This document shows positions 20,999 through 60,522 of a stretch of DNA of 64,000 nt, one piece after another. Positions within the stretch are counted from its first letter, which is position 1. Every line of letters starts with the position of its first letter. The DNA comes from a virus: the IMG/VR virus record IMGVR_UViG_3300046791_000454, positions 17,497 to 81,496 of that record; one strand, written 5' to 3'. The notes beneath the pieces are model-generated. The model saw only the letters and a program-made list of their open reading frames with translations. It was not told the DNA's origin and ran no database searches. The position numbers and the translations under genes were made by a program.

Positions 20999-21871
20999 CT
21001 ATCCGCCGAACCCGTATCCAGTGCAGATCCAGTCCACCGCCACCGTGTCGAATTGGAGCTCCACCCAGGAGACGAGCGAGGAGAGCAGCGTCGGCGTGAT
21101 GTCCACGCCCGCGTTGTTCTTGATCTTGAAGGTGAACCCGGTGCCCGCCTCACGCGAGATGGTGCACTGGCACGGTGCGTTGTTCGCCGGCAGGTTGCAG
21201 GTGTAGGTGCGAGCGGCAACCATGTGAGGCGGCAAGAAGATGACGTCATAGACGCCCGGGTCGATGTTCTGGTTCGCGTCGCTGTACGTGTGGTCGCGAA
21301 GGCCAACGCTTGCCAGAGGCCCGTCGAGCACCGTCTGCCCCGTGCGGGTCTCAGTCCCGCTCGCCGTCTCGCCATTGTGGATAACACGAGAGCCCGCTAC
21401 GTAGGTCGTGGCGTTCGTCGCCGTGAACGCGCACGTCCCGTTGATGAGCACCGTCGACGTGCTGCTCGCCTGCAAGGAGCTTGTGCCCGTGAGCGCCAGC
21501 GTCGCGGTGTCCGTGAACGTCCACGAGGAGCCGCCGTCGATGATGCTTGCCGAGCCGTTCTGTGCTTCGAGGTGGCCGCCGCTGTTCACGGTGACGCTGT
21601 GCCCGTAGGTCAGGACCACGTTGCCGAAGACGGCGCCAAGGGTGACGTTCGAGAGGCTCAGCGGGCCGTCTACGCGGAGCCCGGCGCCGTTGATGATGAC
21701 GGCCGCGGCAGGCGCCCAGGTGCCGCCCTCGTCGCCGTTGACTGCCTTGTAGAGATTGGCGTCGAGGGTCTCGAGCTCCGTGTGAAACGTCGAGAGCGCC
21801 GGGTCGGTTGTGCCGCCGTCGACGGTGAGCGTTGCCCAGCCGCCGGGGCGAATCAGTGAGAAGTGCGCCAC
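20999..21871 (-). CDS. Fibre-like protein, tandem paralogue (290 aa)
   Basis: The GTG at 21871 is chosen over an upstream ATG at 21907, because it lies one base after the previous stop and its first residues align with those of the downstream paralogue. Shared parts: YKAVNGDEGGTWAPAAAVII, beta turns in the middle, and ETRTGQTVLDGPLASVGLR. The C-terminus (VSWVELQFDTVAVDWICTG) parallels the tip of the other copy. Alternative fibres with different tips would broaden host range; that is an inference. Confidence 0.6.
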   Translation of the reverse strand: MAHFSLIRPGGWATLTVDGGTTDPALSTFHTELETLDANLYKAVNGDEGGTWAPAAAVIINGAGLRVDGPLSLSNVTLGAVFGNVVLTYGHSVTVNSGGHLEAQNGSASIIDGGSSWTFTDTATLALTGTSSLQASSTSTVLINGTCAFTATNATTYVAGSRVIHNGETASGTETRTGQTVLDGPLASVGLRDHTYSDANQNIDPGVYDVIFLPPHMVAARTYTCNLPANNAPCQCTISREAGTGFTFKIKNNAGVDITPTLLSSLVSWVELQFDTVAVDWICTGYGFGG

Positions 21872-47452: not shown

Positions 47453-47683
47453 TTACCGCCGTCGCCCAGCACGAACTCCTGACCCCGAGGCTGCGATGCA
47501 ATGGGCAAGGCGCAGCGGCTCCTCGTCCTCGTTCATGGCGAGCATCATCGCCACGCCCTCGGCCGTGCGAAAGAAGCAACAGCGGTCGTAGTTGTACCCA
47601 GTGATGAGACCGCTGCACTTCGCACCGCACCGGTCCGGGTGCTCGTCGTCGACCTCGATGGGGACCATGGCGAGGAGCTTCAC
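47453..47683 (-). CDS. Small Cys-rich putative zinc protein, paralogue (76 aa)
   Basis: GTG start overlapping the stop of the small terminase gene. Cys at RCGAKCSGLITGYNYDRCCFF and LAHCIAASG give a four- or five-Cys set. The opening KLLAMVPIEVDDEHP resembles the other two Cys-rich genes at their first strand. A metal-binding scaffold protein is likely; role unknown. Confidence 0.55.
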   Translation of the reverse strand: MKLLAMVPIEVDDEHPDRCGAKCSGLITGYNYDRCCFFRTAEGVAMMLAMNEDEEPLRLAHCIAASGSGVRAGRRR

Positions 47684-48570
47684 TTGCCCTTCCCTGCCGG
47701 CAGGCTCTTCGCCCCGGCGTACTCAAGTTTCAAAGCTTGAAGCCCCTCGGCCACGGCCGCCAGCGCATCGGGGTACGGCTCGAGCCGCTCCCGAACCACC
47801 GCAAGCATCCGGTCGACGAGCGGATTCTGCAACAGGTTAACTACAATGTTCGTGCTGCTGGTGACGACGCCGCTCGCTCGGTCGTGGTTCTTCTGCGACT
47901 CGACCGCCACGGCCAAAAACTTCGGCTTGTTGCCCAGCGCAGCGGCCGCGACGGCCGGGCCGAGGTCCTCCGGGATGTCCCCCTGAGCCGCGTCCTCGGC
48001 CTGGTCCCGCATGTGACGCCACCACGAAAGCGACTCCAGCCGCGCCTGCGACACGTCGCCCATGTCCGCCGCCGCCAGGTCCACCGCGCGCTTCATGTAC
48101 CCGCGAACGCAGTCCTCCGAAACGCCCCAAACCGCGGACAGCGCGGGCACGTCCGCCGACGACTTCCACTCGTGTCCGGAGACCAAACGCCTCGTAATGA
48201 ACCTCACACGTTGCTTGTCGTCTAGGATTCCAAAGGCTTCTTTTGCCCATGTGGCACAGGGGTCGCGCGCGCGCGGAAAGTCATTGTCCGCGGACAGAAG
48301 CTCGCCAACCTCTCCGGACACATCGTCCCCCCCAACCACCTCCGTCTGGCTGTCCGTGTCCGCGTCCGGAGAACTGTCCGGGATTCCCGGACGGTTGCTC
48401 TTGGCGACTGGCTTCCCCGTGATGCCGAGGTGTCGGCGGTGCTCCGCAAGGGCGCTCTTGCCCACCCCGAAGGCCTTGGCGGCGTCGCGGACGCTGTACC
48501 CTTGCCGGAGGGCCTCAGCGATGGCCTCGGCCTGCAGGTGGGCCGCCATGGCGCAGCAGGGCTTGGTCAC
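47680..48570 (-). CDS. Probable terminase small subunit (296 aa)
   Basis: The GTG at 48570 overlaps the stop of the gene upstream. Residues 12-45 (AEAIAEALRQGYSVRDAAKAFGVGKSALAEHRRHLG) are a resolvase-like HTH. The middle is acidic and disordered (PDSSPDADTDSQTEVVGGDD). The second half has a further HTH-like stretch (ADVPALSAVWGVSEDCVRGYMKRA) and the long helix of a ring-forming small terminase (LLQNPLVDRMLAVVRERLEPY). It lies two genes upstream of the large subunit. The family is not confirmed. Confidence 0.6.
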   Translation of the reverse strand: MTKPCCAMAAHLQAEAIAEALRQGYSVRDAAKAFGVGKSALAEHRRHLGITGKPVAKSNRPGIPDSSPDADTDSQTEVVGGDDVSGEVGELLSADNDFPRARDPCATWAKEAFGILDDKQRVRFITRRLVSGHEWKSSADVPALSAVWGVSEDCVRGYMKRAVDLAAADMGDVSQARLESLSWWRHMRDQAEDAAQGDIPEDLGPAVAAAALGNKPKFLAVAVESQKNHDRASGVVTSSTNIVVNLLQNPLVDRMLAVVRERLEPYPDALAAVAEGLQALKLEYAGAKSLPAGKGK

Positions 48571-48749
48571 TTGGCCTTCGCCTCCAAGATGTCCAGGAGC
48601 ACCGTGAAGCTCTCGAGGGACCGGGCCTTGTCGCACCCGGCCGCCGACAGAAGCAGGGCCGCCGCCTGCATTGTTGCGTACGCGCGGGTGACCGTGCAGC
48701 GGGTGACCACGACGTCGGACCCGCCGGAGATAAGCAGGCGGCCGATCAT
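48567..48749 (-). CDS. Small hypothetical protein (60 aa)
   Basis: ATG in an ATGA overlap with the gene upstream and GTGA overlap downstream. Short beta-helix-beta protein: GRLLISGGSDVVVTRCTVTRAYA, then AALLLSAAGCDKARSLESFTVLL. Two Cys. No recognised domain. Overlaps at both ends support translation. Confidence 0.5.
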   Translation of the reverse strand: MIGRLLISGGSDVVVTRCTVTRAYATMQAAALLLSAAGCDKARSLESFTVLLDILEAKAK

Positions 48750-52289: not shown

Positions 52290-52447
52290 TTCGGGTTGCC
52301 CTTCGGTGGCGGGGCCTTCTCTTGCTCCGGCGGCGCGTACGCGGGCGTGGCCGAGCAGTAGTGAATGCTCCAGACCAGGGCCTTGCCGGGCGGCGGGACC
52401 GGGAAGGGGGCGCCGCAGGTGGGGCAGGTGCCGGGCTTCGAGCTCAT
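52286..52447 (-). CDS. Small zinc-ribbon protein (53 aa)
   Basis: ATG at 52447 with ATGA overlap and GTGA overlap at its end. Begins SSKPGTCPTCGAPFPVPPPG and has a third Cys in HYCSATP. The rest is Pro-rich and basic. CPTCGxPF is a common zinc-ribbon start. Identified by direct translation because it is too short for automatic calling. Confidence 0.5.
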   Translation of the reverse strand: MSSKPGTCPTCGAPFPVPPPGKALVWSIHYCSATPAYAPPEQEKAPPPKGNPK

Positions 52448-53097
52448 CGGCCCTTCCTCAGCGTCGAGAGGTTCGCCGTCCGACTCACGACGCGCAGCGA
52501 GGCCCGCGCATCGTGATACGCGCGGAACATGAGCGCGTCGGGCTCGTTCAGAAACCGCGTCGTCGTCCCGCCCGCGGCGTCGACCGATGCAGTCGAGCCG
52601 TACTCGGCGATAAACGCCGCAAGGATGGCGTCGAACGTCCAGGGCTCGGCGTGGTCAACGTGGCAGGTGTCCCACGTGACCACCTCTCCGGTGATGGGGC
52701 ACGTGAGCGACCCAGACAGCGCGAACGCCATCGACTTGAACGCGAGCACTGAGTCGACGACGGAGGTGCGGCACGCTTTCTTGAAGTCGTCGAGCGCGCT
52801 GCGCGGCGTGAGGCAGGACTTGTAGCTGAAGTCGATCCGCGACCCGTCGACGCGCACGATGCAGAAGCAGCGATTCCCGAAGTCGCTTCGCATGACCTCG
52901 AGATGGTCAACGCCCACGCCGATCTTCTCGGCCGCGGATTGGTGGTTGGCGAGGACCGCGCGCACGAAGGCCTCGTCCGCATCATCAAGCACGGCACCGG
53001 GCGCGTACTTCGCGAGCACGCCGGCAATCCGCTTGTCAGCCGCGCTCTTGGTGACGAAGGTCTCGGTCCCGAGCGTGAACGACTGTCGCTTGCTCAT
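52444..53097 (-). CDS. DUF3223-domain protein with C-terminal Cys-His site (217 aa)
   Basis: Residues 20-105 contain ADKRIAGVLAKYAPGAVLDDADEAFVRAVLANHQSAAEKIG and the FxxxxRC(F/I)xIVRVDGSRIDFSY pattern that fits DUF3223. After a linker, CPITGEVVTWDTCHVDHAEPW (about 140-160) gives Cys-Cys-His-His spacing like a stand-alone zinc or HNH-type site. The C-terminal 40 residues are basic. The fusion may be a nucleic-acid enzyme, but the HNH Asn is not obvious. ATG overlaps the gene upstream. Confidence 0.55.
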   Translation of the reverse strand: MSKRQSFTLGTETFVTKSAADKRIAGVLAKYAPGAVLDDADEAFVRAVLANHQSAAEKIGVGVDHLEVMRSDFGNRCFCIVRVDGSRIDFSYKSCLTPRSALDDFKKACRTSVVDSVLAFKSMAFALSGSLTCPITGEVVTWDTCHVDHAEPWTFDAILAAFIAEYGSTASVDAAGGTTTRFLNEPDALMFRAYHDARASLRVVSRTANLSTLRKGR

Positions 53098-53417
53098 GCC
53101 GCATCCTCTCCAGACAGCAGCCTGGCTGCCAAGTCTTCGACCGTGGTCCCCGCCGTTGCCGCCTCGTACGCATCCAGACACTGGCGGAGCGCGTCCGCGT
53201 CGCCGTGCTTCTGCCGCACGTACGCAGCAACCGCGAGCACGCCGTCGTCGAAGATGCGAAACCGGTTGAACCTCGTGGCGACGCCGATGGCGGTCCAGAC
53301 GTCCGCGAACCGCGCCGTCGCGAACGCGTACGACTTCATGCGCTCCTCGACGGCGAGGTAGGCAACGTTGACGACAACGGCGCCGAGGAAGGCGGCCTCG
53401 TTCTGCGTGCGGCTCAT
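53094..53417 (-). CDS. Hypothetical protein (107 aa)
   Basis: Helical, with QNEAAFLGAVVVNVAYLAVEERMK, ADVWTAIGVATRFNRF and a C-terminal VEDLAARLLSGEDAA. ATGA overlap with DnaB-like helicase upstream. No motif recognised. It could be a helicase partner but only position suggests this. Confidence 0.5.
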   Translation of the reverse strand: MSRTQNEAAFLGAVVVNVAYLAVEERMKSYAFATARFADVWTAIGVATRFNRFRIFDDGVLAVAAYVRQKHGDADALRQCLDAYEAATAGTTVEDLAARLLSGEDAA

Positions 53418-54814
53418 ACTCGCTCCTGGTCGGAGAACAGAACATAGGAAGAGTGGAACCACATGTCCGCTGCCACCCCGGAGCGTCCACTGCGCTGCTT
53501 GCGGATGTGCACACGCACGGGCTCAGGGATCTCGGGGTGCCTTGGGGCGTTTGGGGTTTCGGCCTCACGCTCAATATCCCACCAATTGTGGGCATCCATG
53601 AGCATCGCCTGGCTCTCCCGAATCTCGCCGCTCTTGTTCAGCTGCGCCAGCGCGACGAGCGAGACCTTGAACTCCACAGCGATCTCGACAAGCGCCTTCG
53701 ATACCGCCGCGAGCTGTTGCTCGCGATTGGCACTGCGGTCCACAAGGTCGCGCCCATCCATGAGCTGGATGTAATCGACAAGGATCACGCGCAGCGGTGC
53801 GCCCCTGCGATCAAGTTCAGCCGCACAACGCCGCGCCTTTGCTCGGAGAGCGGAAGTAGTCAGCCGCTTGGTGTCGTCGATCATCATGGGTAGCCGAGAA
53901 AGCCAGTTGGTGGCACCGAACAGGCGATCGGCCTCATCCCTGGAAACGGTGCCCTGTAGCAACGCCTCGCCGCTCACAAGTGCCTGTGCGCATGCGAGAC
54001 GTAGACCGATGTCGTCGCGCGCCATCTCAAGTGAGAACACCGCGACCCCGCAATGAGGCTGACCGTCGAACGGGTCGCTTGCGGCAGCGTTCATCGCCAG
54101 ACTCATGCCGAACGCCGTCTTCCCGCGGCCAGTAATGCCTGATACGAGCGTAAGCTGCCCGCGGTGAAGTCCGCCCGTGTACTTGTCGAGATTTGCGAAA
54201 CCGGTAGTGACCCCGGAGATCCGCACCGGAAGCCCCCGCTCTTTGCGGTCAACCTTCTCGGCGACCGGGCCCATGGCATCCTGAATCGACCTGCCGACGA
54301 ATACCGCGTCAGAACGAACGGACCTGTCGGCGAGCGCCGCGAGACGGGACGGGGCTCGACGAATCCAAGACACGTCGTCCTCGAGGACGCCGTAGCCCTC
54401 AGCGGCAATGGTTTGGCACTCTGCAATAATCTGTCGTCGAATTCCTAAGTGGGCAACAACCTTCGCGTGAAACTCGACGTTGCCCGCGAAGGGCGTGGCG
54501 TTCGCGACCTCCTTCAGGTAAGCGGCGTCTGCGCCGTGCGCGCCAAGCTTCCGCTGCGCATGTAGGTACATCGCGACGGCGGCGTCGTCGGGCTCGACGT
54601 GCTCGTCGTCAATGGCGAGAATCGCCTCGAACATGAGCCGGTGAGCCGATGCGAAGAAGTCCTCGACGCGGAGGATGTCACGCACGAGTGCCACGTGGCC
54701 ACCGCACATCAGGTCGGACAATACTACCCTCTCGGCCTCAAGGTTGTGCGGCGTTGGGGTGCCGGGCGGTGGCGACGGGGCGGCGTACAGCCTAACTTCG
54801 GGACTGCGCTTCAT
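53414..54814 (-). CDS. dnaB: DnaB-like replicative helicase (466 aa)
   Basis: N-terminal domain (residues 20-130: PHNLEAERVVLSDLMCGG, DFFASAHRLMFEAILAI) and RecA-like domain with Walker A GITGRGKT at 226-233, FSLEMARDDIG at 260-270, and Walker B VILVDYIQLM at 343-352. DnaB motif 4 is at RSANREQQLAAVSKAL. The hexamer unwinds the replication fork. It follows the initiator-like gene by three bases, an arrangement like lambda O-P or P22 O-12. Length is normal. Confidence 0.9.
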   Translation of the reverse strand: MKRSPEVRLYAAPSPPPGTPTPHNLEAERVVLSDLMCGGHVALVRDILRVEDFFASAHRLMFEAILAIDDEHVEPDDAAVAMYLHAQRKLGAHGADAAYLKEVANATPFAGNVEFHAKVVAHLGIRRQIIAECQTIAAEGYGVLEDDVSWIRRAPSRLAALADRSVRSDAVFVGRSIQDAMGPVAEKVDRKERGLPVRISGVTTGFANLDKYTGGLHRGQLTLVSGITGRGKTAFGMSLAMNAAASDPFDGQPHCGVAVFSLEMARDDIGLRLACAQALVSGEALLQGTVSRDEADRLFGATNWLSRLPMMIDDTKRLTTSALRAKARRCAAELDRRGAPLRVILVDYIQLMDGRDLVDRSANREQQLAAVSKALVEIAVEFKVSLVALAQLNKSGEIRESQAMLMDAHNWWDIEREAETPNAPRHPEIPEPVRVHIRKQRSGRSGVAADMWFHSSYVLFSDQERV

Positions 54815-54817
54815 TAT

Positions 54818-55714
54818 CTACTCCTGGCCAAGAAGCCCAAACTTCTTGAGCGGGTCGAGGTAATCGTGCGGCGTGGGGTCAAGTGATAGCTGTGCGGCCG
54901 CTTCGGCGATCTCTGGCCTGACTGGAGGCAATGGCGGCGGCCCACCCTCGGGGATTGGAAGCGCCCGCGGTAGCTCCGGGTGAAAGCGGCGGGCGTTGCG
55001 AAGCCACGTGCGAAAGGCGGCGTCCCAGTCCGCGTGCATGGTGCCCTTTGCCAATGCCTTGTCCCGGAACTCGTCGGCCTCGGCATCGACGACGTGCTCC
55101 GGAAACGCTACGGCGTCGCTGTTCCTCGCCCAGGCGAAGTGGTCCGGCTTCGGCACCCAGTCCGGCGGGAACGCCACAACCGGCAATGGCGCTGGCTTCG
55201 GCTGCTTCGTCCGTCGTGGGGGTTTGGGGGATCCTTCTTCTCTCTTCTCCTCTGATCTACTCTCCTCTCCTCTGGGCACCGTTGCACGACCGTTGCCTTC
55301 GCGTTGCACGACCGTTGCCTCACCGTTGCATTCGTCTGCAACGATCGTTGCATCGCGTTGCACGACCGTTGCGCGGTACCGACGGGATCGCTCAGTCGAC
55401 GCTTTTCCGGCCTCGACGGCGTTCCACCTGGACCAGCTTGGGATGACGAGACGACGGGCCCCCGACTCCCCTTCGAGCCGGAGCGGTGCGTCATCGCCAT
55501 CCGTGAGCGCGTTGAGCGCGACCACGATCTCCTTCCGATTTCCTCCGAGCAGGTCGTGTAGACCGTCGACGTCGCTCATCCCGAGGGGCAATCGGAGCTC
55601 CCCGCGACCTCTCCGCGCCTTCAGGGAGAGCTCCATCAGGATGAACCGCGTCGCCCTCGGCAGGCCCCTCTTGGCCCCCGAGCAGAGCTCCTCGTGAAAC
55701 TTGACCCACGTCAT
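54818..55714 (-). CDS. Replication initiator or helicase-loader-like protein (298 aa)
   Basis: ATG at 55714 overlaps the upstream stop. Residues 1-85 form a winged-helix-like domain: TWVKFHEELCSGAKRGLPRATR, LPLGMSDVDGLHDLLGGNRKEIV, ARRLVIPSWSRWN. Then comes a low-complexity hinge encoded by the repeat array at 55232-55372. The C-terminal 110 residues have FPPDWVPKPDHFAWA, ADEFRDKALAKGTMHADWDAAFRTWLRNARR, the pattern of DnaT-like or phage O/P-type proteins. Located before dnaB and carrying a candidate origin, it is the best initiator in the window. A named family is not claimed. Confidence 0.6.
   Translation of the reverse strand: MTWVKFHEELCSGAKRGLPRATRFILMELSLKARRGRGELRLPLGMSDVDGLHDLLGGNRKEIVVALNALTDGDDAPLRLEGESGARRLVIPSWSRWNAVEAGKASTERSRRYRATVVQRDATIVADECNGEATVVQREGNGRATVPRGEESRSEEKREEGSPKPPRRTKQPKPAPLPVVAFPPDWVPKPDHFAWARNSDAVAFPEHVVDAEADEFRDKALAKGTMHADWDAAFRTWLRNARRFHPELPRALPIPEGGPPPLPPVRPEIAEAAAQLSLDPTPHDYLDPLKKFGLLGQE
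55232..55372. other. Candidate replication origin: GTTGC repeat array with polypyrimidine tract
   Basis: GTTGC starts at 55281, 55292, 55303, 55314 and 55325 (exactly 11 bp apart), then 55347, 55357 and 55368, with one inverted GCAAC at 55338. Three copies extend to CGTTGCACGACCGTTGC. Directly beside lies a 42-base tract of almost only C and T (55232-55273). A G5T3G5 element precedes it (55218-55230). Repeats in helical phase inside a replication gene are the hallmark of lambda-type origins. Confidence 0.5.
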
Positions 55715-56364
55715 GCCGACCATCCTCCTCGCCTCTGGAACACGTCCAGCGCCTCGGCAAAGCACCGCTCCGCGTCCTGCCACACCTCGGAGCCCGTGAA
55801 CCTGAGCGGGCTCCAGCCCGCAGCCGTCAGGGCCCTGTCTCGCCGCTTGTCGCGCGCCGCCGCCACCTTCGTCTCGTGGAAGTCGTGGCCGTCGATCTCG
55901 ACGGCAACACCAACCACGCCACCATCGGCCACCAGCGCGAAGTCGAGCCGGTAGTCTCCCGCTGGCGCCTGGAGCGCGAACAGCGCCGCTCCGTCCAACA
56001 CCTCGCACGCGACCAACAAGCCGCACGCCTTGTGAAACCGTCGCCGGGTGCCGGCATCGAACAAGTCGGATTGCGGGTGTCCGATGGCTGCGAGCAGGAA
56101 GAGGCGCTCAACTGGTGACTCGCACCGGCGCAGCACCTCGGACACGCCAGACTGAACACGCGCAGCCCACTTGCCCGCGCCGGCAGCGAGCTTACATTCG
56201 GTCTCAGGTGACAGCTCAGGTGGAGCGGAGACCGGAGCGACGAGGGTCCCGCGCCCACCAACTGCCAGCCTGGTACGCGAACGCTCGGCGACGATACGCA
56301 GCGCCGCGTCTTCGCGGGCAGTGTCGCCGCTGCTGAGTTCAGATTCCAACGCCAGGTCCTTCAT
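55711..56364 (-). CDS. DUF559/Vsr-like PD-(D/E)XK endonuclease (217 aa)
   Basis: The core is ESPVERLFLLAAIGH at about residue 82, then YRLDFALVADGGVVGVAVEIDGHDFHETKVAAARDKRRDRALTAAGW (in parts) at 138-185. The Asp in RLDFA and Glu in VEIDG, followed by HDFH, give the PD-ExK active-site order of the DUF559 class. FTGSEVWQDAERC is the usual last helix. Phage members may process recombination intermediates or cut host DNA. ATGA overlaps join it to the initiator-like gene and the DnaA-domain gene. Confidence 0.6.
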   Translation of the reverse strand: MKDLALESELSSGDTAREDAALRIVAERSRTRLAVGGRGTLVAPVSAPPELSPETECKLAAGAGKWAARVQSGVSEVLRRCESPVERLFLLAAIGHPQSDLFDAGTRRRFHKACGLLVACEVLDGAALFALQAPAGDYRLDFALVADGGVVGVAVEIDGHDFHETKVAAARDKRRDRALTAAGWSPLRFTGSEVWQDAERCFAEALDVFQRRGGWSA

Positions 56365-56723
56365 GCACTCACCTTTACCAGCGGCTTCATCCGCTCCACC
56401 ACCGACAACCTCACTCGCTCCCTCGCCGTCCTCTCCCGGTGAGACATGATGCCAACGCGCACGGTCGCGTGGTCCCGGTCGAACGCCACCGCGATGGCGT
56501 CGAACGAGTACCGCGCTACCTTGATTGCCTTGAGTTCATGCCAGACCTCTTGACGCACGCCTGACGCACCGTTGCGGTGCGACCGCCCCAGCACCTCGCT
56601 CAGCATCGCCCCCCGCCTCGCGCACACCTCCTCGGCGAGCTCGAGCCACGTCCTGCCATCAGGCAACCGCCGCACCGCGAGGTTGCACTCCACGTCGTCC
56701 GCCGTGAGCTTCATCATGCCCAT
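56361..56723 (-). CDS. DnaA domain IV-like DNA-binding protein (120 aa)
   Basis: Residues 40-110 follow the order of the DnaA C-terminal domain: LAEEVCARRGAMLSEVLGRSHRNGASGVRQEV as helices, and ARYSFDAIAVAFDRDHATVRVGIMSH, where DHATV replaces the conserved DHTTV-type box-binding motif. Domains of this kind alone are found in some phages and chromosomes. It has no AAA+ ATPase, so it could bind origin repeats without loading helicase. It lies one gene from the putative origin. Confidence 0.6.
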   Translation of the reverse strand: MGMMKLTADDVECNLAVRRLPDGRTWLELAEEVCARRGAMLSEVLGRSHRNGASGVRQEVWHELKAIKVARYSFDAIAVAFDRDHATVRVGIMSHRERTARERVRLSVVERMKPLVKVSA

Positions 56724-59584: not shown

Positions 59585-60522
59585 GCGCCACCGGCGGCGA
59601 AGAGGTCGACCTGGCGGCCGGCAGCTTCAGGTTCCGCCGCGGCGAGGTTCCGCCGAGCGATCCGAAAGTAGCTGTCCTTGAGCTCAATGCCGACGAACTT
59701 GCGTCCGTTCTCGACGGCGCCCACGCCCTCGGACCCGACGCCCGCGAAGGGCGAGAACACGACCTCGCCCGGGTTGCTCCAGAGGCAGACGCAGCGCTTG
59801 ATGATGTCCAAACTCAGGGGGCAGAGGTGCTTTTCGTCTTTGTCCTCGCGAGCGAGCTCCACGTTGAGCACGTCCGTAAGGTCGCAGTTCATCCAGACGG
59901 GCGAGGCCCACTCTTGCCACTGGGACAGCGGGAAGCTGTCGTGCGTGTGCGTGACCGGGATGGGCTTGTCGCTCTCCTCCGTCGCGTCATCGTCCGCCCA
60001 CTTACGGAACGTGATGACGTACTCGGCCATGCCCTGCCGGGAGAACGAGGAGTCCCGCCGAAGCTGCTTGTAGAGGAGGCCATGCGCCTTCGTCTTTTGC
60101 ATCTCCGTTACGGGCGACCGCCACACGGTCACGCGCGAGTGGAACGTGAAGCCCGCGTCCTGGTGAACGCGGATGATGTCGCCGGGCAGGTCGCGTAAGC
60201 CCGCCGCGCCGTCGCGGCCCTTGTAGTTCACGAGGTCCTTGCAGTGGACGCAAACGACTCGGCCGGGCCGCATGACGCGGTAGAGCTCCGTGACGAGGTA
60301 GGCGTATTGCGAGAGGAACTCGGAGTCGTTGGCGCAATTGCCGAGGTCGCGCGCCGAGTCAGAATAGCAGTATAAATTTCCAAACGGGGGACTATAAAGT
60401 CCTAAGTCGAAAGAGTTACTCGGAAGACGGCGGATGAAGTCCACGCAATCCGCGTTGTAGAGAGACCACCCGTTGCCGTGCGCCTCGTCCAATACCAACA
60501 CCTCGTCCGCCTTCTTCTTCAC
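59581..60522 (-). CDS. DNA methyltransferase (N4-cytosine or N6-adenine, beta-class order) (313 aa)
   Basis: The GTG at 60522 is chosen because AGGAGG lies four bases upstream, within the end of the helicase gene. The catalytic motif LYSPPFGNL is at 42-50 and the AdoMet-binding motif FSPFAGVGSEG at 256-266, so motif IV precedes motif I as in the beta group. SPPF is most typical of N4-cytosine enzymes. Between are WRSPVTEMQKTKAHGLLYKQL and AEYVITFRKW. It may shield phage DNA from restriction. It is translated with the SNF2 helicase upstream. Confidence 0.8.
   Translation of the reverse strand: MKKKADEVLVLDEAHGNGWSLYNADCVDFIRRLPSNSFDLGLYSPPFGNLYCYSDSARDLGNCANDSEFLSQYAYLVTELYRVMRPGRVVCVHCKDLVNYKGRDGAAGLRDLPGDIIRVHQDAGFTFHSRVTVWRSPVTEMQKTKAHGLLYKQLRRDSSFSRQGMAEYVITFRKWADDDATEESDKPIPVTHTHDSFPLSQWQEWASPVWMNCDLTDVLNVELAREDKDEKHLCPLSLDIIKRCVCLWSNPGEVVFSPFAGVGSEGVGAVENGRKFVGIELKDSYFRIARRNLAAAEPEAAGRQVDLFAAGGA

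Follow-up and report, generated by a model that had tools for sequence, protein, structure and literature searches.

A probable replication origin nested in the initiator gene of an uncultivated tailed phage

The replication-initiator gene of an uncultivated phage contains an array of GCAACG repeats that recur about once per helical turn and are followed by a purine-rich tract of low predicted stability. The segment spanning both (55232-55372) is very probably the replication origin of the phage, lying within its own initiator gene, in the part that encodes the linker, and used through the binding-to-helicase mechanism proposed below. The phage is represented by an 81,496-bp virus record (IMGVR_UViG_3300046791_000454), and the window analysed here, to which all positions refer, is the 64,000-nt stretch at record positions 17,497-81,496. 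The presence of portal, head protease, major head and baseplate hub genes identifies the record as a tailed phage. The origin assignment is based on the DNA-level constraint and phasing of the repeats, the initiator-DnaB operon, the lambda-like position and tract side, the low stability of the tract, the repeat clusters at 11, 22-23 and 32-33 bp in a survey of initiators, the association of GYAACG with one type of N-terminus, and a scan in which GCAACG at 11-bp spacing returned many initiators as opposed to mostly tail and low-complexity proteins at 12 bp.

Table 1 Candidate origin features and the genes that carry them (window positions).
Feature	Position	Strand	Observation
DnaB-like replicative helicase gene	53414-54814	-	PF03796 E 1e-48; phrog_19 E 5.7e-63
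Initiator gene, 298 aa	54818-55714	-	winged-helix N-terminus (predicted), repeat-encoding linker, helical DnaT-like C-terminus
G5T3G5 element, adjoining the tract	55218-55230	+	0.16 expected by chance in the window
42-bp purine-rich tract (coding strand), candidate unwinding element	55232-55273	-	39/42 purines
Iteron array	55280-55372	-	eight direct GCAACG (coding strand), one inverted; 10/11/22-bp steps
N-terminal 114 residues, predicted winged-helix DNA-binding domain	55373-55714	-	hhalign to related-initiator profile

The direct GTTGC copies on the plus strand start at 55281, 55292, 55303, 55314, 55325, 55347, 55357 and 55368, with steps of 11, 11, 11, 11, 22, 10 and 11 bp, and the inverted copy, GCAAC, lies at 55338; the copy number, orientation and spacing agree with the original prediction. 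Each of the nine copies is part of CGTTGC (GCAACG on the coding strand, where the repeat unit reads GCAACGgtcgt), and the array includes the palindrome GCAACGATCGTTGC. With nine copies in 120 bp, this is the densest 6-mer cluster of the record; across 30 first-order Markov simulations the maxima were 4-6. The codon frames of the eight direct copies are 0, 2, 0, 1, 0, 2, 1 and 0; all three frames are used, and thus the array is not a protein repeat, in line with the original prediction. The cluster was matched by none of 500 synonymous-codon shuffles, in which protein and codon usage were fixed (maximum 6), and by none of 500 codon-order shuffles of the initiator gene (maximum 5). Together with the three-frame spread, these results indicate that the repeat is kept at the DNA level. 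The second 6-mer cluster of the record, six CGGACA/TGTCCG within 120 bp (48285-48390, inside gene 47680-48636), could be another binding array or could reflect codon bias.

By nearest-neighbour energies, only one 42-bp segment of the 81.5-kb record is less stable than the purine-rich tract. Tandem DNA-level repeats inside an initiator gene are thereby joined by a predicted duplex-unwinding element, the combination that characterizes initiator-embedded iteron origins. The tract is about half G+C and is not A+T-rich in absolute terms. It had been predicted as a 42-base pyrimidine tract on the opposite strand; the length holds, while three purines interrupt it. The least stable 42-bp segment of the record (60363-60405) is in the start region of a DNA methyltransferase gene and has no repeat array. 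The G5T3G5 element is present and exceeds its chance expectation, although nothing was found that ties it to an origin. The site also lacks the skew support that had been proposed as a check, with the cumulative GC-skew extremes of the whole record near window 44.7 kb and -10.7 kb rather than 55.3 kb. A DnaA/oriC-type origin was rejected, as no DnaA boxes lie beside the unwinding element; the only window match to TTATCCACA, with one mismatch allowed, is at 21376.

The initiator matches two PHROG replication-initiation families, phrog_1032 (E 1.7e-11) and phrog_1408 (E 2.7e-10), and the DnaB-like helicase gene is the next one in the operon, starting 3 bp past the initiator stop codon, which agrees with the predicted placement of an initiator-like gene just before dnaB. 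Compared with DnaT (PF17948), the initiator C-terminus scores E 0.033 and 14.4 bits, below the cut-off of 25. The N-terminal domain is the likely iteron reader, judging from profile comparisons. The window N-terminus alone aligns with the profile of related initiators (hhalign, 86.6%, E 4.5e-6), and this group, window included and with the GCAACG-type N-termini cut before the array, aligns with Phage_rep_org_N (PF09681) proteins (98.5%, E 3.4e-15). Two GCAACG-type members of the group themselves exceed the PF09681 cut-off. The match of the window N-terminus alone to PF09681 proteins is without significance, and PF09681 gave no match in the window initiator at E 0.1. The AlphaFold model of the initiator is poor (mean pLDDT 59.5) and retrieved only weak winged-helix matches with Foldseek (DnaD, MarR and a Rep-DNA complex).

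The initiator start overlaps by four bases with a gene for a 217-aa MTES_1575/DUF559-type nuclease (55711-56364, minus strand; PF18741 E 4e-12), an unusual partner in a replication operon. Just 3' of dnaB lies a DUF3223 protein gene (52444-53094, minus strand; PF11523 E 8e-20), for which the matched PHROG is of unknown function. Upstream of the initiator, a 120-aa protein (56361-56723, minus strand) had been described as DnaA-domain-IV-like; this description was not borne out, the Bac_DnaA_C match being weak (E 0.024, 15.1 bits versus a cut-off of 31.5) and DnaA boxes being absent nearby. A FDRDHATVRVGI stretch in this protein resembles the DnaA box-binding signature.

No close relatives of the phage were found among viral contigs using the initiator and DnaB peptides as queries. 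So as not to select on repeats, 47 non-redundant initiator genes were chosen at the protein level, from a protein family in 399 Pseudomonadota genomes and by homology among phages and viral contigs. A single 6-mer occurs five or more times within 120 bp in 22 of the 47, compared with 2 of 99 neighbouring genes (P 4e-11); about half of the initiators have no such cluster. Synonymous shuffles of a 36-gene core reached the same density in 31 of 720 cases. Relative to synonymous shuffles, direct repeats are most overrepresented at lags 11 (z 8.1), 22-23 (5.5, 7.8) and 32-33 (3.9, 3.7), with no excess at lags 13, 19, 25-26 and 35. The comparison suggested along with the original prediction thus turned out favourably: homologous initiators have phased DNA repeats at the matching place while their residues vary. 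Scanning genome contigs with an initiator alignment yielded one locus, the first alignment having been too diverse for scanning.

A DNA-only scan of IMG/VR for (GCAACG N5)x3 returned 101 stretches. PHROG replication or primosome families were matched by 16 of 20 singly examined ORFs, which is not an unbiased rate because these were chosen partly for their initiator-like look; the wider set comprises DUF1376, DnaD-like, O-like and replisome-organizer types. At 12-bp spacing, GCAACG gave at least 120 stretches; among the matches listed, most lay in tail and low-complexity proteins, and 2 of 72 ORFs belonged to a primosomal family. The control hexamer ACGGCA, which has the same composition, gave 33 stretches at 11 bp, and 5 of 10 ORFs examined were replication initiators, so that GCAACG is not the only hexamer arrayed at 11 bp in initiators. 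In the sequences scanned, initiator genes in general often contain 11-bp arrays, and those of GCAACG are common among them.

A regular-expression search for an ERSR motif gave zero matches in the protein-selected set, and the relationship between N-terminus and iteron was therefore examined via N-terminal homologues; tblastn with the N-terminus of one initiator (L087) gave no matches. Initiators that have the window-type C-terminus but other N-termini carry repeats other than GCAACG: ATGGCA in Klebsiella, where the N-terminus is HTH_36, GTGCAA in Bifidobacterium, CCGAAG in Microcystis, AAAACC in Vibrio and AACCCT in Gordonia phage GAL1. In Gram-positive phages with a Phage_rep_org_N domain, GTAACG arrays occupy the corresponding place in the gene, as in phi11, where CGTAACGTTACCGTAACGTTACGTAACG is followed by a long purine tract. 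With an array defined as at least four GYAACG within 110 bp, 7 of 12 Phage_rep_org_N-type genes have one, versus 0 of 47 genes with other N-termini (P 2e-6); for the genes found by the N-terminus alone the count is 4 of 8, versus the same 0 of 47 (P 2e-4). These counts are not independent, because several of the phages are related, and some of the twelve were retrieved with a full-length query, its repeat-encoding linker included. In 31 initiators that have GYAACG arrays, purine runs on the downstream side of the array exceed those upstream in length (P 0.0014), and the 80 bp downstream are GC-poorer than the gene (P 7e-5). The TP901-1 rep gene and some other Phage_rep_org_N-type genes have no GYAACG array. 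The linkers of three such genes (L422, L406 and L407) carry repeats of the GTCACG type or akin to it (SHATSRDSHAT), which may be a one-base variant of the iteron.

Within the sequences compared, the GYAACG core is associated with a Phage_rep_org_N-like winged-helix N-terminus, in phages that range from those of Streptococcus, Staphylococcus and Enterococcus to the high-GC phage of the window. We lean slightly towards the view that a single winged-helix family (Phage_rep_org_N-like) reads GYAACG and that this explains why the core, repeated roughly once per helical turn, has been conserved between phages of low-GC Gram-positive hosts and high-GC phages; the domain and its embedded origin would then move together as a module that is combined with unrelated C-terminal domains. 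No description of the GYAACG repeat or of such a cross-phylum rule was found in the literature searched; older papers, such as the review of phage replication modules by Weigel and Seitz (2006), may cover part of it.

The same code was applied to lambda O as a positive control: its iterons span gene bp 349-433 and its purine run 452-470, and the corresponding positions in the window initiator are 342-435 and 441-483. Both genes thus have mid-gene repeats, then a coding-strand purine tract 3' of them, and a helicase loader or helicase gene next. A strand-asymmetric purine tract beside the iterons is known in the lambda origin (PMC5043065). The origin of P22 likewise lies inside an initiator gene, gene 18. 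In contrast, lambda has four 18-19-bp inverted-repeat (dyad) iterons that bind dimers and an A+T-rich tract, whereas the GC-rich units of the window are mostly 11-bp direct repeats, one being inverted; protein likeness to O was compared via PHROG families. The predicted lambda-style origin is therefore retained for its architecture and not for its iteron type, and the candidate appears lambda-like in layout and plasmid-iteron-like in repeat type.

The N-terminal domains of PF09681 proteins such as phi11 orf15, SM1 gp19 and phiEf11 are homologous to those of the initiator group that includes the window protein, taken as a group, and their genes have a GYAACG array at a window-like place, followed by a purine-rich tract. 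Unlike the window, the Gram-positive Phage_rep_org_N phages have GTAACG, often as the palindrome GTAACGTTAC, 10-12 bp apart and at low GC. SPP1 gene 38 (oriL) and 80alpha ORF20 also have an origin embedded in the replisome-organizer gene, and an ORF20 deletion could not be complemented in trans (PMC5499656). The annotated putative origin of 80alpha is mid-gene, as in the window, but its N-terminus and repeats differ and an AT-rich region is added; gp20 (L423:1940-2710) carries GGTAAAACC-type repeats and an AT-rich stretch with ACTAATAAT every 15 bp. In pSK41-type RepA_N initiators, the boxes lie mid-rep and are bound by a winged-helix N-terminal domain, the origin encodes the linker, and in pPR9 the N-terminal domain and origin are replaced together (PMC5703833). 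These are plasmid initiators with a primase-binding C-terminus and different boxes, and their likeness to the window is one of architecture.

By analogy to lambda (PMC5043065, PMC7466680), 80alpha ORF20 and SPP1 gene 38 (PMC5499656) and pSK41 (PMC5703833), for which genetic or biochemical support exists, we infer the following course of initiation. The winged-helix N-terminal domain would bind the GCAACG sites, and since these recur about every helical turn, bound initiators may line up along one side of the helix, bending or wrapping the DNA. The resulting strain would open the adjoining purine-asymmetric tract of low stability. The helical C-terminal domain would then hold the single strand and/or hand over DnaB, the product of the next gene.

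The array might instead serve as an operator or copy-control element, at which the initiator or another phage repressor regulates the operon or copy number, with the origin elsewhere. Plasmid iterons do serve control too, and the GC-skew extremes do lie elsewhere, but the array is mid-gene, far from the upstream end of the operon, adjoins a low-stability tract and occupies the position of the lambda iterons; we regard this explanation as unlikely. A partition (centromere-like) site is highly improbable: iteron-like arrays do occur at plasmid centromeres too, yet the arrays considered here recur specifically in the initiator genes of many phages, and none of nine neighbouring proteins examined matched a partition family.

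Selection for a repetitive polar linker peptide, with the DNA repeats as its by-product, accounts for the polar and repetitive linker (ATVVQRDATIV.., EESRSEEKREE) and for similar linker peptides in other initiators. This protein-level explanation was rejected on the codon frames and the synonymous shuffles, and the excess lags include 11, 22, 23 and 32, which are not multiples of three; we give it next to no credence. The origin assignment itself has to accommodate the remote skew extremes, the G+C content of the tract, the initiators without a cluster, the Phage_rep_org_N-type genes without GYAACG arrays and the failure to find a close relative. In its favour, the original proposal of an origin in the initiator-like gene is supported by the phased repeats in homologous initiators, the lambda-like position and the adjacent dnaB.

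The architecture of an iteron origin embedded in an initiator gene is already known from lambda, SPP1, 80alpha and pSK41, and the window phage is a new member. A probable replication origin is thus located in an uncultivated phage, and the candidate illustrates clearly how a protein code and a DNA code overlap. A testable rule emerges, by which DNA-level repeats at intervals of one or two helical turns are common in the linkers of phage initiators and their sequence tracks the N-terminal DNA-binding domain. Origin prediction and swaps of initiator-origin specificity become directly testable. If one winged-helix module does read GYAACG, the origins of many uncultivated phages would be readable straight from sequence.
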